DNA from: Nitrososphaerota archaeon
GTDB lineage: Archaea; Thermoproteota; Nitrososphaeria; Conexivisphaerales; DTJL01
Reading direction: 5' to 3'
DNA length: 64,000 nucleotides
NCBI GenBank assembly: GCA_021324115.1
Contig: JAJPJS010000025.1
Coordinates: 326,343-390,342, forward strand
Shown: positions 37,466-43,537 of the stretch, one piece after another
Position numbering within the stretch: position 1 is the first letter of the stretch
How the letters are laid out: every line of letters starts with the position of its first letter
The notes under the pieces: generated by a model
Databases searched by the model: none
The model's input: only the letters and a program-made list of their open reading frames with translations
What the model was told of the DNA's origin: nothing
Program-made: the position numbers and the translations under genes

Positions 37466-37475
37466 CTTATATAAG
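37466..37475 (+). promoter_or_regulatory. TATA box of the mini-SMC operon
   Basis: CTTATATAAG is centred 27 bp upstream of the GTG at 37498. The spacing predicts a leaderless mRNA and supports that start. It shows the three-gene operon has its own promoter, separate from the PfkB gene. Confidence 0.65.
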
Positions 37476-37497: not shown

Positions 37498-39393
37498 GTG
37501 TCAGAGTCCGAACGAAAACCATTCATCAAAGAGGTCATACTGGAGAATTTCATGAGTTATGACTATGGAAGGATACCCCTGAGGTCCGGACTCAATGTTG
37601 TGCTGGGTCCCAATGGTGCCGGCAAATCAAGCATCCTTCTGGGAATTTCTGTCGCACTGGGACAGGCGTACACAGAGAGGTCTAGAAGGCTCAGCGATTT
37701 GGTCAAAAGGGGGAAGGATATTGCCAGGGTGACGCTGCTCCTCGACAATTCTCCAAGGGGCGGTAAGAGGCCACTCCCATTCAGGTCGGACCTCATACAC
37801 CTGTCCAGATACATAAGAAAGGATGGAACCTACTGGTTTGAAGTTGATTTCAAGGAAGCGAGCAAGATAGAAGTGACAGAAACGCTCCGCGGATTGGGTT
37901 TGAATCCTGATAATATGCTTGTTATAATGCATCAGGGCTTGGGGGATGCATTCAGTGTGGTAACCCCACAGGAGAAGCTCGCGATGGTCGAGGATGCGGT
38001 GGGGCTGGGAGACTACAGAAAGAGTCTCCTCGAGGCAAAGGAAAGGCTCGAGAAGATCAGGGCCGAGGAGGAAGAGCGCGAAAAGGACCTGCAGGCCGCC
38101 AGTGCTGGCCTGAGCAGATGGAAGGAGCAGTTTGAAAAGTACCTGCAGGTGAAGGAGCTCCATGATAAGAGCAGAAGTCTAAGGGTGGAGGAAGCGTGGT
38201 CTAAGGTGGATAAACTCACGAACTCTGTTCATCAATCCGAGGACAGGGTTTCGAGACTCCAGGAGGAGCTTTCGGCACTACGGGCTAGATTAAAAGAAAG
38301 GGAAACCGAGGCAGAAGCGGCTTCGAAGGACTTCGAAACTGTTCTTTCCACCTATTCGTCCGCTGAAAGGCAGAGGGAAAGGCTTAGGTTTGAGCAGCAG
38401 CTGGAAAGGGTCCTGCGCTCTTCCCAACAAGACGCCGGGGGACTTCGCCAACTTCAAACAGCTGGTTTGATATCCGATGAAACTTCTGAACTCCAAAAAA
38501 AGGTCGATGCTTCAGAGTCAAATGTGGCCGACATGCTTTCTGAACTCAAAGGTACGCTCGGTGAGCTCATACAGGCACGAGAGAAGGCCGCAGTTGACGG
38601 ATACAGAGTCTCAGAAATGGAAAAGGAACTTCGAAAACAGCAGAAGCAACTGGCAGACCTGAGGGAGGAAGAGGCTTCGCTGAAGGGCGATGCATCCATA
38701 CTCGGTGGGAGGCCTAACGAGGTCAGACAACTACTCGATGTCCAGGCCGAGCTCAGAGTCACGGAACTGAGGATCAAGGAGCTGGGGGACGTGCCTGCGG
38801 ACGCAGAGGCCATCTATCGTGATTATAAGGCAAGGATTGAGTCGTTGTCGGCCAGAATCACCGAGCTGCGCTCAAACAAGAATGCTACGCTGAGGGAAGT
38901 CAGCGAACGCTTCAGTGTCTGGAAAAGGGAGCTGGAGGCGCTGGTAATCGACCTCTCCAAACGTTACATGGATGTCCTTTCGATGGTGGGAGCGACTGGG
39001 AGGGTTTCCCTTTCCAACCCCGACGACCCAACCACAGCCGGCTTGGAAATACTGGTTTCGTTCAGAGGAGACCAGCTCGTTCCCCTTGATGCCTACGTTC
39101 AGAGCGGTGGCGAAAGGAGCAGCGCGGTGACCGCACTTCTTCTTGCGTTACAGGGAAGGGTGATCTCTCCATTCAGGGCAGTGGACGAATTTGACGTCCA
39201 TATGGACAAGCTTAACAGACAACTCTTCATGAAGAGCGTATATCAGCTATTTAACTCTGACAGTTCGGCTCAGTACGTCATCATTACGCCGGTGGAACCT
39301 GATGTATATGATCCAAATGCCAACTACATAATGGTGCACAAGGTCGCATCTTCATCAAAGGCGGGTGTAGCGGAGAAAGTTGCCCAAAGATAG
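37498..39393 (+). CDS. Mini-SMC/Rad50-like ATPase without hinge domain
   Basis: A 631-residue SMC-type ATPase. Head motifs: Walker A GPNGAGKSS (38-46), Q-loop MHQG (144-147), SMC-like PQEKLAMVEDAVGLGDYRKS (157-176), ABC signature SGGERSSAV (536-544) and Walker B RAVDEFDVHMD (560-570), the last like Smc5/6 (DEINQGMD). Two coiled-coil arms run about 175-305 and 330-490. They meet at a short turn (SSQQDAGGLRQLQTAGL, 308-324); there is neither a hinge domain nor a zinc-hook CxxC. Full SMCs are about 1,150 aa. It is followed, with overlap, by a kleisin-like and a MAGE-like gene, so it is probably a chromosome-organising or DNA-repair complex. Confidence 0.88.
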   Translation: MSESERKPFIKEVILENFMSYDYGRIPLRSGLNVVLGPNGAGKSSILLGISVALGQAYTERSRRLSDLVKRGKDIARVTLLLDNSPRGGKRPLPFRSDLIHLSRYIRKDGTYWFEVDFKEASKIEVTETLRGLGLNPDNMLVIMHQGLGDAFSVVTPQEKLAMVEDAVGLGDYRKSLLEAKERLEKIRAEEEEREKDLQAASAGLSRWKEQFEKYLQVKELHDKSRSLRVEEAWSKVDKLTNSVHQSEDRVSRLQEELSALRARLKERETEAEAASKDFETVLSTYSSAERQRERLRFEQQLERVLRSSQQDAGGLRQLQTAGLISDETSELQKKVDASESNVADMLSELKGTLGELIQAREKAAVDGYRVSEMEKELRKQQKQLADLREEEASLKGDASILGGRPNEVRQLLDVQAELRVTELRIKELGDVPADAEAIYRDYKARIESLSARITELRSNKNATLREVSERFSVWKRELEALVIDLSKRYMDVLSMVGATGRVSLSNPDDPTTAGLEILVSFRGDQLVPLDAYVQSGGERSSAVTALLLALQGRVISPFRAVDEFDVHMDKLNRQLFMKSVYQLFNSDSSAQYVIITPVEPDVYDPNANYIMVHKVASSSKAGVAEKVAQR

Positions 39394-40108
39394 AAAATCA
39401 AAAAATGCCGGAATCGAATACCGGGAAAGAATAGCGGCCCTCTCTGAAGAATTGAAGGAGACGGGAGCAGACCCGTTTGCAGTCGATGTCGACCATATCC
39501 TCGAAGAGCTGAGAAAGGACTATGCCGTATCAGACCCGAGGATACTCACGGCGGACGCGAAGGCGCTTGGGTCCGTGAGCGAGGTGGTCCAGATGCAGGA
39601 TACCTGGATAGGTAAGCAGCTTTCCGGGCTACAGGTGGATCCTGCCCTTCTCCTGGACAGGGTCAAGCGCCTTGGCCTCAGAAGTCTTGCAGCATCTCTC
39701 TACAGCAGTCAGCATCTGCCGGTGGGGGTCAAACAGGTGGCCACCAAGAGGCTACTCGAAGCGGCTGAATACTGGATTCAGCTTTCCGGCTGGGGCGGAC
39801 GGCTGAGCCTTCCGTCGAATCAGATGGGCGAGCTTCTTACAGAGACACTGGAGCTGACGCCAGAAGACCTGGAGCAGGAGGTGAAGGATATGTCAGAATC
39901 GGTGCTGCAGAGTGTTGCGGAGGGACCCGTTGCTTATGATGCACTTCTCGGTCAATCCACCGGAGCAGAACGTTTGAAAAGAGCGTTTGTTCTTTCACTT
40001 ATCTGCGCGAGGGGAGCAGTAACGCTGAGGTATGACCCCTTGCTGGGCAAATATGTTGTCCAGAGGGCCGAAGGGACGCCGGACAGTTCGGTGGCGATAA
40101 AAGTATGA
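39380..40108 (+). CDS. Kleisin-like subunit of the mini-SMC complex
   Basis: A 242-residue acidic helical protein; TTG start overlapping the SMC gene by 14 bp. The C terminus (LKRAFVLSLICARGAVTLRY then DPLLGKYVV) has the shape of the kleisin/ScpA/Nse4 winged helix that binds an SMC head (a helix, then a 'G-x-V-x-L' wing). The N-terminal 60 residues are helical, as expected for the neck-binding end. No ScpA-level sequence identity is obvious, so kleisin is inferred from context and fold pattern. Its stop overlaps the next gene by ATGA. Confidence 0.6.
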   Translation: MPKDRKSKNAGIEYRERIAALSEELKETGADPFAVDVDHILEELRKDYAVSDPRILTADAKALGSVSEVVQMQDTWIGKQLSGLQVDPALLLDRVKRLGLRSLAASLYSSQHLPVGVKQVATKRLLEAAEYWIQLSGWGGRLSLPSNQMGELLTETLELTPEDLEQEVKDMSESVLQSVAEGPVAYDALLGQSTGAERLKRAFVLSLICARGAVTLRYDPLLGKYVVQRAEGTPDSSVAIKV

Positions 40109-40701
40109 GTGAACCTGAGACTGAGAAAGAGAAGGAGGAGAAACTCGAGGCACAACTGAGAGAAAGCGCACGGGCAGGACTAAGGTTCCTGCTCATTCAG
40201 AGACGCAGCCAACCCGGGTGCAAGGGATGGGAGCTGAAAAGAGAGCTGGGAAGGAACTATCTTCAGATTCTCAGGCTTGTGAACGGCATGGCCTCGGACA
40301 TTGGCCTGAAGCTGGTTTCGGTGCCAGATGAGGACTTCCCTGATGACCCGGACAGGTCCAGGTATCTGCTGGTTTCAAAGGAGCCGCTCTCAGAAAAGGA
40401 CACGGGAAGCTGGCTCCGAATGGAGGAGGCGGCCAGTCTGGCGATCATACTTTCACACCTGTTCGTCAAGGGAGAGGTGGATTCAAAGGCCGTGGTGATG
40501 ACGATGGTGAGGGAGAAGCTTCCTTCCTGGAGGGCACAGCAGGTGGTGTCGAAGCTGACAAGGCTGGGGTACCTCGAGGATGATGCGGGTTACATAAGGG
40601 TCGGTTGGAGGACAAAAGTCGAAATAGACAGGGATGAGCTCTTGACCTCGATACTATCGAGGAGGCCTGAAGGTGGCGACCCGGCAAACCCGTCTACCTG
40701 A
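40105..40701 (+). CDS. MAGE/Nse3-like tandem winged-helix (KITE) protein
   Basis: A 198-residue protein. After a charged N-terminal helix come two winged-helix units. The first (GLRFLLIQRRSQPGCKGWELKREL, YLQILRLVNGMASDIGLKLV, RYLLVSKEPLS) follows the MAGE order: a helix, then 'GLxLxxV', then 'YxLVSK'. The second (ASLAIILSHLFVKGEVDSKAV, LTRLGYLEDDAGYIRVGWRT) parallels MAGE WHB ('I-F-x-x-G-x-x-S-E', ending 'YLxY..WGPRA'). The ATGA overlap with the kleisin-like gene implies a complex, as Nse1/Nse3 with Nse4 in Smc5/6. The assignment rests on pattern reading. Confidence 0.6.
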   Translation: MSEPETEKEKEEKLEAQLRESARAGLRFLLIQRRSQPGCKGWELKRELGRNYLQILRLVNGMASDIGLKLVSVPDEDFPDDPDRSRYLLVSKEPLSEKDTGSWLRMEEAASLAIILSHLFVKGEVDSKAVVMTMVREKLPSWRAQQVVSKLTRLGYLEDDAGYIRVGWRTKVEIDRDELLTSILSRRPEGGDPANPST

Positions 40702-43537
40702 TGAACCTTCTCAGGTTTCTTCTCCTCTCATATTCAACCAGGTCCGAAAAGAAGTCATCATCAGCCAGCACATGCTTCGAAAGAATCGACTCGGCTTCAT
40801 CTCCTTTGAGGCGATACGCAAGAACCATGACGGCGAGTGTCCCGTATTTCTCCACAAGTCTTCCGCTTGAAATTAGCTCGTCTCTCAACTTTTTCCCTTG
40901 AGCAGAAGGTTCCATGCCGACACTCAGTCTTCTTGCAAGCCTTTCGACCTTTTCTTCGTCTTCGGGAGGTACGGCGATGCGCTGCGAGCCGCAAACAGGG
41001 CACCTTGGCGCAATCCTGAGTTCCGAGACGTATACTCTGGATGTGTACTTCCAGCAGTTTGTGCACACCAGAAGGACCGAGGAACCGAGCACCCTCACTT
41101 TGGCCCCCTCGACTGCAAGCCTTTTCAGACGGTTCGGGTCCATGACCTCCCCCTTGCGGGACATCTCCTCAAGGGCAATCGAGGCAAGAGGGGTGGGCGT
41201 TTCGGTTTCCCCGATCACGGCCACCGATATTTCGCCCGTTGCAACCTTTGAAAGAAACCTGGAAAGACCCCTGACGTCAACATCCTCATGCAGAAATGTG
41301 CGCCAGGCTTCTTCAAAGGGAAGGCCATCCTTGTATGCGGCCATGACCCTGTCGAGCATGCCGCTGGTAAGGTCCGCGTCCCTTCCAAGAACACCAATCT
41401 TCCTCGCAACATGCATGAACCTGATCCTGAAAAATCCTGACTCTTCGCATGCGCTCTTCAGGATCGACTCTAGGTCGGCAGAAGCCAGATAGAGAAGGTT
41501 CCTGTGGACATCATCGCACGTCAATCCCCTGCCTTCGAGCATCACCCTGTAGGCATCTTCGCCTGTCACGATGCGCCTGTTTTCAGATAGCACCCTTGCA
41601 AGCAACCTGGACAGGGTTCTGTTGACCCTCAGCCCCCAGTGTGTGTGAATTATGACCATGCCGTTCCAGGATTCCAGTGTGACCGTTCTATCTGAAGGGA
41701 CGGGCTGGCCATTGGACAGTTGTTGCAATATTTCAACAAGAGCCCTCTTCCCTGAGGGAAGTTCCAGGCCGCTTTCGCCTGAAAGGGTCTGAAGCCACGA
41801 GTCGAATTCCGATCTTTTCCTGGCTAGGTCGGTGCAGATCCTCCTGTAGCTGCCCACCTTCAGAGCCACCTCGGATGGCACCGGTATCTCCTCGCCCACC
41901 CAGCTGGGTACCGCGCCCATCGGGTCCTCGGACCTTGTCACGTAAACTGTGCCGTTATGTACCTGCTCGATTCTCCAGGCGGCACCGCCGAGTATGAACT
42001 TCTTTCCTATTTCGCCCTCCTTAGCCACGAATTCTTCATCCAACATGCCCACATTCGTGGAATCCCTCGATACAACCGGGTACTGCCTCGTCTCAGGTAT
42101 CATTGATAAATTCTCAAAATAGTAGCGGAAGAGGGGTTTCGAGTCGAACGCCCTGGACACTGTATCCCCTCTCAGGCTGGCAAGTCGCGGCCTCATCGAT
42201 TCCATGAATTCCACACCCCTTCTGAGCTCGGCATCTGAAAGGTTCCTGAACACGTAGGACCTCCTGAATATTGTGAGCAGGTCGGGAAGATTCCAGCTTC
42301 TCCTTTCGATAAGAAGGCCAGCAAGCTGCTGCACCAGAACATCGTACGGCTTTTCATGAACTGACGTTTCCTCATAAGAACCCTTCATAGCCAGTTCGGA
42401 TATCGCGGCTGCCTCAAGGGTATCGTCAGAATCCTGTGTAATGACAAAGCATCGACTCACCTTCGAAAGGGTATGGCCACTCCTGCCCGCCCTCTGGACA
42501 AGTCTGGTGACCTGTCTTGGTGAGCCATACTGTACTATCAGCTTGACTGATCCTACGTCTATTCCCATTTCCAGACTGCTGGTGGAAACTATTGCTCTGA
42601 GGTCGCCTAGCTTCAGGCTTGTTTCCGCCAACGACCTTGCACCCCTTGAAAGACTTCCATGGTGCACGGCGAGCCTGATCTTTTCGTCCCACATTCTTAG
42701 CCTGCTCGAGAGAATCTCGGCCTCAGATCTGGTGTTGGTGAATACGATCGCGGGTCCTCTTTCTATAAGCGAAGCGAGTAACTTGACCCTGGCCACCACT
42801 TCGGGAAATGTCTGTATCCTTGAAGCATCGGCTTCGTCTTCCGGCCCTGCCGCCGGATACAGTATCTTGAATTCAAACTTCTTTTCCGTGCTGACCTTGA
42901 TCACTTCACAGGTTCTGGTCGGTCCCACGAGAAACGAAGCGACTACTTCGGGGGAACCGACGGTCGCCGACAGCCCCACCCTCTGAAAGTCTGAATCTGT
43001 CAGCTCTCTAAGCCTTTCCAGGCATACGCTCAGTTGGCTACCCCTCTTGTCGGTGGCGAGTTCATGTATCTCATCTATGACGGCCCATCTCAACGGTGAA
43101 AGGTACTGAGCCAGCCTTCTTGATACCAGGAGCACCTGCAGGGTTTCAGGAGTCGTTATGATGATGTCCGGCGGGGCAAGACTCTGTGCCCTTCTCTCCT
43201 CGAGCGCCGTATCCCCATGTCTCACTGACAACCTGATGTCGAGCTGCTTGCACCATGTTTCCAGTCTTCCGAGAAGGTCTCTGTTCAGCGCCCGGAGTGG
43301 GGTGACGTAAAGGGCCTTCACCCCCCGTTTTGAAGTTAGATTCTCGCGAATGATGGTGTCGAGGATTGGGATCATTGCAGCTTCAGTCTTCCCAGAACCG
43401 GTTGGGCTCACCAGCAGGATATTCTTGCGCTGAAGGACGACAGGAATACATTCAACTTGTGGCGGTGTGGGAGTCGTCATGCCTGACTCCCTAAGTAACT
43501 CATTCATCCTGGGTGTAAGGAACTCGAATACGCTCAA
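40694..43537 (-). CDS. lhr: Lhr-family DNA/RNA helicase
   Basis: A 947-residue superfamily 2 helicase. Motifs: Walker A SPTGSGKTEA (45-54), PLRALNRDL, TTPETLQVLL, DEIHEL (Walker B, normally DEVH), SATVGS, then IVFTNTRSEAE, VSTSSLEMGIDVG and QRAGRSGH. The Lhr winged-helix and core beta domains follow (about 430-780). The C terminus carries a zinc ribbon CTNCWKY...CPVCGS (about 845-865) and a helical tail, an arrangement seen in archaeal Lhr-like proteins. Likely in DNA repair or recombination. Converges with the MAGE-like gene by 8 bp. Confidence 0.9.
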   Translation of the reverse strand: MSVFEFLTPRMNELLRESGMTTPTPPQVECIPVVLQRKNILLVSPTGSGKTEAAMIPILDTIIRENLTSKRGVKALYVTPLRALNRDLLGRLETWCKQLDIRLSVRHGDTALEERRAQSLAPPDIIITTPETLQVLLVSRRLAQYLSPLRWAVIDEIHELATDKRGSQLSVCLERLRELTDSDFQRVGLSATVGSPEVVASFLVGPTRTCEVIKVSTEKKFEFKILYPAAGPEDEADASRIQTFPEVVARVKLLASLIERGPAIVFTNTRSEAEILSSRLRMWDEKIRLAVHHGSLSRGARSLAETSLKLGDLRAIVSTSSLEMGIDVGSVKLIVQYGSPRQVTRLVQRAGRSGHTLSKVSRCFVITQDSDDTLEAAAISELAMKGSYEETSVHEKPYDVLVQQLAGLLIERRSWNLPDLLTIFRRSYVFRNLSDAELRRGVEFMESMRPRLASLRGDTVSRAFDSKPLFRYYFENLSMIPETRQYPVVSRDSTNVGMLDEEFVAKEGEIGKKFILGGAAWRIEQVHNGTVYVTRSEDPMGAVPSWVGEEIPVPSEVALKVGSYRRICTDLARKRSEFDSWLQTLSGESGLELPSGKRALVEILQQLSNGQPVPSDRTVTLESWNGMVIIHTHWGLRVNRTLSRLLARVLSENRRIVTGEDAYRVMLEGRGLTCDDVHRNLLYLASADLESILKSACEESGFFRIRFMHVARKIGVLGRDADLTSGMLDRVMAAYKDGLPFEEAWRTFLHEDVDVRGLSRFLSKVATGEISVAVIGETETPTPLASIALEEMSRKGEVMDPNRLKRLAVEGAKVRVLGSSVLLVCTNCWKYTSRVYVSELRIAPRCPVCGSQRIAVPPEDEEKVERLARRLSVGMEPSAQGKKLRDELISSGRLVEKYGTLAVMVLAYRLKGDEAESILSKHVLADDDFFSDLVEYERRRNLRRFIR

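Follow-up and report, generated by a model that had tools for sequence, protein, structure and literature searches.

We consider it probable that a three-gene operon of a Nitrososphaerota archaeon encodes a second archaeal SMC-kleisin-KITE complex, which belongs to the Smc5/6 branch and is separate from the Smc-ScpA-ScpB complex of the same genome. The operon lies in a 64,000-nt stretch (contig JAJPJS010000025.1, positions 326,343-390,342, forward strand), which is called the window here; all coordinates are window positions unless a locus is named. The first gene encodes an SMC ATPase (mini-SMC), the second a kleisin (P2), and the third a KITE protein (P3). An earlier note made from the sequence alone had read them as the Smc, Nse4, and Nse3 subunits of Smc5/6 in miniature, possibly an archaeal ancestor or a minimal relative of that complex. 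All three subunits support the relationship, with ancestry a further hypothesis. Of the outcomes that the earlier note had named as refuting, namely partners lacking any MAGE/KITE or kleisin match, a hinge at residues 300-335, or unrelated neighbors elsewhere, none was obtained. Computation established the three families and their co-inheritance, the predicted folds of both partners, and the lack of any known hinge.

Relationship of the SMC heads

When the mini-SMC family profile was compared with the whole PDB, the best matches were Smc6 (7.4e-64, 220 bits) and Smc5 (1.3e-57, 199 bits), and the ten best distinct sequences were all Smc6 or Smc5 (220-184 bits). The first canonical SMC scored 1.1e-46 (163 bits) and SMC2 scored 4e-42 (148 bits). 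A control search with the canonical SMC encoded alongside mini-SMC in this genome retrieved SMC, SMC2, SMC3, SMC4, and SMC1, with no Smc5/6 match down to 1e-20.

The alignment of mini-SMC to yeast and human Smc6 spanned both lobes and the surroundings of Walker B, where mini-SMC has SPFRAVDEFDVHMD and the human protein has SPFRCLDEFDVYMD. The motif DEFDVHMD of the window corresponds to DEFDVYMD in human SMC6 and to DEFDVFMD in yeast Smc6; these alignments bear out the likeness to Smc5/6 that the earlier note had seen in Walker B. The other head motifs claimed for this 631-aa SMC-type protein (Walker A and SGGER) were likewise present. Walker A, the signature, and Walker B were kept across the 38-57 family members of the alignments, and Pfam SMC_N was found in all 38 members scanned.

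In a maximum-likelihood tree built from 36 heads, for which Rad50 served as the outgroup, mini-SMC grouped with Smc5/6 (95/88) and canonical SMC was recovered at 98/97. In a denser published tree, archaeal "SMC5/6-related" SMC grouped with SMC5 and SMC6 at 100/0.99 (PMC9389158). The profile scores support the assignment of mini-SMC to the Smc5/6 branch; the tree points the same way, but other placements were not rejected in the topology test described below.

Hinge and coiled coil

The window SMC showed no SMC_hinge match at E ≤ 1 (Pfam) and no CxxC zinc hook, and SMC_hinge was absent from the 25 most frequent Pfam families across 38 mini-SMC members. The control, canonical SMC from this genome, matched SMC_hinge at 6.6e-21. 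In 103 of 104 family members, 438-562 aa separate Walker A from the signature, compared with approximately 1060 aa in canonical SMC. Conservation of mini-SMC reached its minimum in mid-coil (0.21-0.36 at residues 241-360), whereas a hinge would be expected to give the reverse. The description of this SMC as hinge-less and hook-less therefore held. These computations point to a mini-SMC without any known hinge; because the hinge domain is lacking, we regard the protein as Smc5/6-like and not as a Smc5/6 of standard architecture.

The zinc hook was missing in nearly all mini-SMC members. CDKC occurred only in one relative (L178:1921-5040, minus strand), a 1039-aa SMC of the same family with a longer coil, in which the motif lies mid-coil like a Rad50 zinc hook. 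Its genome yielded neither P2 nor P3; this relative may have switched to a Rad50-like life, or its partners may be missing from the assembly.

The CDKC motif of this relative, the lack of a hinge, and a helicase gene adjoining the operon would also suit a Rad50-like DNA-end machine, in which short-armed heads act with accessory winged-helix proteins at broken ends. We give this reading very little credence, because Rad50 was far down the PDB list and formed a separate outgroup in the tree, no Mre11 gene was found within the operon, and kleisin and KITE partners are foreign to Rad50 complexes (PMC10586767).

Kleisin and KITE partners

P2 alone had no Pfam or NCBIfam match. At the family level, a profile of 59 members matched yeast Nse4 (2.7e-5) and human NSE4/EID3 (0.0014) in the PDB, and ScpA weakly. 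Pfam Nse4_C matched 44 of the 59 members (best 5.3e-6); the window P2 by itself was below Nse4_C detection. In the AlphaFold2 (AF2) model of P2 (predicted local distance difference test, pLDDT, 79), the N-domain is helical and includes a long third helix, the middle is poorly ordered, and a winged helix forms the C-terminal part. The five best PDB matches of the fold were all kleisins (two Nse4, ScpA-C, Scc1-C, and RAD21), and the C-terminal winged helix matched 4i99_C (TMt 0.75) and 1w1w_E (TMt 0.71). The profile, Pfam, and fold matches support the kleisin-like C-terminal winged helix that had been proposed for P2. On the model, the N-terminal helices are expected to bind the SMC neck and the C-terminal winged helix to bind the SMC head cap. 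Sorting nexin-25, the top match of a small first profile of P2 (0.0019), was discarded; it was gone with 59 members.

P3 alone also had no match in Pfam or NCBIfam, and its AF2 model (pLDDT 89.4) shows tandem winged helices. A Foldseek search of 350,542 chains ranked MAGE-G1/NSE3 and NSE1 in the first five places (1.4e-6 to 2.4e-4), with MAGE-A11 and MukE next; ScpB was absent among the best 50 matches listed. MAGE was the first PDB match of the P3 family profiles (0.0014 and 0.014), Pfam MAGE matched three family members (best 3.6e-4), and Pfam Nse1 matched relatives at 0.007. A Pfam MAGE scan was uninformative, with no match in the genome of the window and none in the controls. An hhalign comparison of P3 with canonical ScpB, for which the profile was thin (four sequences), gave nothing. 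The fold ranking and the Pfam MAGE matches agree with the earlier suggestion that P3 has the tandem winged helices of MAGE/Nse3. Because it carries no RING, P3 is similar to Nse3 or to a precursor from which Nse1 and Nse3 both arose.

The same genome encodes Smc (1189 aa, hinged), ScpA, and ScpB in a row (L229:4169-8902). With this ordinary hinged set present, the mini-SMC operon is a second SMC-kleisin-KITE system. Canonical ScpA of this genome matched the ScpA model and, weakly, CNDH2_C (condensin-II) and Rad21_Rec8 in Pfam; because ScpA leads to condensin and cohesin kleisins and P2 leads to Nse4, a split between a cohesin/condensin type and a Smc5/6 type is already visible in archaea.

Taxonomic distribution and gene order

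Among 300 genomes of the phylum, P3 was found in 125 (usually with one match per genome), P2 in 126 (after three borderline C-terminal matches were removed), and mini-SMC in 128; at least one gene was present in 131 and all three in 122. The co-occurrence of the triplet in other genomes, which the earlier note had named as a check, is therefore conserved, and it extends across phyla. All three genes shared a strand and a locus in 115 cases, some of them counted in two collections. Such recurrence is more than chance and marks a large archaeal family, not an oddity of one genome. The order SMC-P2-P3 was observed in 20 of 20 first relatives, in most of 60 loci across families, and in most archaeal loci of a further scan.

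The system was found in Bathyarchaeia, Nitrososphaeria, Methanomethylicia, Methanodesulfokora (Korarchaeia), Thermofilales, Hadesarchaea, and Methanophagales. In the Hadesarchaea phylum (Hadarchaeota), 21 of 28 genomes had P3, as did 29 of 247 in the Methanophagales phylum. The listed genomes of one family (f7) of the class of the window had none of the three genes. A pattern scan returned no Asgard among the 80 matches listed, which is not evidence of absence.

The genes persist where the operon is broken. In four loci (L085, L091, L096, and L103), P2 and P3 had no adjoining SMC gene, and the SMC gene was elsewhere in every one of these genomes, approximately 6-10 kb away on the same contig (three genomes) or on another contig (one genome). 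Two genes separate P2 from P3 in L085 and L096; their products have hydrophobic N-termini and look pilin-like by eye.

This distribution bears on whether the operon could serve in defence against plasmids or phages, as Wadjet and Lamassu do. The SMC does score against the defence ATPase models mad3 and LmuB, as most coiled-coil ABC ATPases do. However, P2 and P3 match no PADLOC defence model, no nuclease or other effector gene is found in the operon, and the genes, in single copy and fixed order, are present in the majority of members of many families, whereas defence islands are sporadic. A defence role is scarcely to be expected.

Weight of the evidence

Several points weigh against a Smc5/6-type complex. 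The phylogeny of the heads, which the earlier note had proposed, grouped mini-SMC with Smc5/6, though the approximately unbiased (AU) test did not reject the alternative of Smc5/6 with canonical SMC (p ~0.17), and the tree contains three long eukaryotic branches. The fold search with P2 gave no match with E < 0.001, so that only its ranking was unanimous, and single P2 and P3 matches are weak, being strong only at the family level. The relative with the CDKC motif and without partners indicates that the SMC head can exist without P2 and P3. The tip of the arms could also dimerize through an unrecognized short element.

The indecisive AU test would likewise fit a second condensin of the Smc-ScpAB type, which would have parted from the first inside the archaea with loss of its hinge and whose likeness to Smc5/6 would be generic to SMC-kleisin-KITE complexes. 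The three-subunit plan is the same as that of Smc-ScpAB, and P2 also matches ScpA: a smaller P2 family profile matched the ScpA N-domain (6ivh) at 0.0034, and hhalign aligned P2 with canonical ScpA colinearly over most of its length (E 9.5e-4). However, SMC, kleisin, and KITE are each separately closer to the Smc5/6 counterpart than to the canonical one. Because these three independent preferences point in one direction, a generic likeness is unlikely, and we regard a diverged condensin as improbable.

Proposed complex

In yeast Smc5/6 bound to DNA, the engaged heads form a clamp together with Nse4 and Nse3 (PMC9191643). All parts of this clamp are present in the Smc5/6-type operon and the hinge ring is not; we therefore propose a homodimeric clamp gated by ATP, and we infer its stoichiometry, mechanism, and biological role as follows. 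With one SMC gene and one KITE gene, homodimers are expected, such that two hinge-less SMC copies, one Nse4-like kleisin, and a KITE dimer would assemble. The N-terminal helices of the kleisin would hold the neck of one SMC, its C-terminal winged helix would cap the head of the other, and the MAGE/Nse3-like KITE dimer would sit on its middle part. ATP would engage the heads, and the KITE dimer would close over a DNA duplex to form a head-kleisin-KITE clamp. Without a hinge to close the arms, DNA would sit in the clamp and within the kleisin compartment instead of inside a large SMC ring. Such a complex would probably serve to hold or sense DNA in repair or replication, and not for long-range condensation.

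If this is true, a closed hinge ring is not required for a SMC-kleisin-KITE machine, and the operon would offer both a homomeric Smc5/6 model made of three genes and a natural experiment on the purpose of the hinge.

Locus organization

The features of the locus are given in Table 1. The three overlapping open reading frames (14 bp, then ATGA between P2 and P3) and a TATA box upstream were found as the earlier note had described them. The TATA-box-like CTTATATAAG was read approximately 27 nt ahead of the GTG start of mini-SMC, a spacing that would be consistent with a leaderless archaeal promoter and one transcript for the operon.

Table 1 Features of the mini-SMC operon and its convergent neighbor
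Feature	Coordinates	Strand	Basis or remark
TATA-box-like CTTATATAAG	37466..37475	+	Read in sequence, consensus only
Hinge-less SMC ATPase, putative Smc5/6 branch, 631 aa, GTG start, TAG stop	37498..39393	+	Pfam SMC_N 5.7e-27
Walker A GPNGAGKS	37606..37629	+	Sequence; core residues invariant in family alignment
Coiled-coil arms, residues ~176-470, turn near 310-330, without hinge or zinc hook	38023..38907	+	
ABC signature SGGERS	39103..39120	+	Sequence; SGGE invariant in family alignment
Walker B DEFDVHMD	39184..39207	+	Sequence and profile alignments
Kleisin (Nse4-like) P2, 242 aa, TTG start, TGA stop	39380..40108	+	14-bp overlap with SMC gene
P2 N-terminal helical domain, residues 1-83	39380..39628	+	AF2 model, pLDDT mostly 85-97; ScpA N-domain match
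P2 C-terminal winged helix, residues 161-229	39860..40066	+	AF2 model, fold matches, Nse4_C region
KITE protein P3, MAGE/Nse3-Nse1 type, 198 aa, ATG start, TGA stop, without RING	40105..40701	+	
Lhr-type DNA helicase, convergent neighbor	40694..43537	-	Pfam DEAD, DEAD_assoc, WH_Lhr

The 3′ end of the Lhr-type helicase gene overlaps the P3 gene by 8 bp, and a helicase of this type followed the operon in convergent orientation at 39 places among the compared loci. The helicase is treated here as a conserved neighbor and not as a member of the complex. A eukaryotic-type topoisomerase IB is divergent from the operon at L072:202-1746 (minus strand), with the same neighbor in six loci. The helicase and topoisomerase IB neighbors are compatible with a role in repair or replication and prove nothing. 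In 21 loci, a 229-aa protein without a Pfam match (L083:1136-1825, minus strand) is encoded divergently beside the operon.

Comparison with known systems

Rad50-Mre11 shares with mini-SMC an ABC head with a coiled coil and no SMC hinge, whereas the mini-SMC operon has neither zinc hook nor Mre11 and has a kleisin and a KITE protein. The ASRP proteins (coalescin, Sph) are, like mini-SMC, short archaeal SMC-like ATPases; they mostly carry a zinc hook (PMC9389158). The window SMC, in contrast, has no CxxC and scored 41.6 bits against the ASRP cut-off of 300 bits. Smc-ScpA-ScpB is likewise a three-gene operon of SMC, kleisin, and KITE in the same genome, but its SMC is a hinged protein of 1189 aa, its ScpA leads to CNDH2_C and Rad21_Rec8, and ScpB is not among the best 50 P3 folds listed.

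Archaeal SMC5/6-related proteins were reportedly named in a 2021 paper. The archaeal "SMC5/6-related" SMC of PMC9389158, which groups with SMC5 and SMC6, is very probably the same protein family as mini-SMC. The parts of PMC9389158 consulted mention no hinge loss and no kleisin or KITE partners for the group. Thus, archaeal "SMC5/6-related" SMCs have already been reported; the loss of the hinge and the Nse4-like and Nse3-like partners were not found in the open literature, and an earlier description is possible.

The eukaryotic Smc5/6 core is similar in all three subunits: the SMC heads are nearest to Smc6 and Smc5, the kleisin to Nse4, and the KITE protein to MAGE/NSE3 and NSE1. The archaeal set differs in having no hinge, arms of approximately half the length, one SMC gene, one KITE gene, and no RING; the two different SMC genes and the RING-bearing Nse1 beside Nse3 that mark Smc5/6 are not in the operon. 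Counterparts of Nse2, Nse5, and Nse6 were not seen in the operon, and no genome-wide search for them was made.

Two histories of Smc5/6 were left undecided by Wells et al. (2017; PMC5228436): either Hawks were acquired and later lost, or Smc5/6 forms a branch apart from cohesin and condensin. A complete archaeal set of the Smc5/6 type that shares its cell with Smc-ScpAB favors the separate branch and makes this option testable; it suggests that the repair machine parted from cohesin and condensin before eukaryotes arose. We propose tentatively, at slightly less than even confidence, that the archaeal ancestor of eukaryotes had two SMC-kleisin-KITE machines, and that Smc5/6-Nse4-Nse3 descends whole from the second of these, the hinge-less DNA clamp described here.

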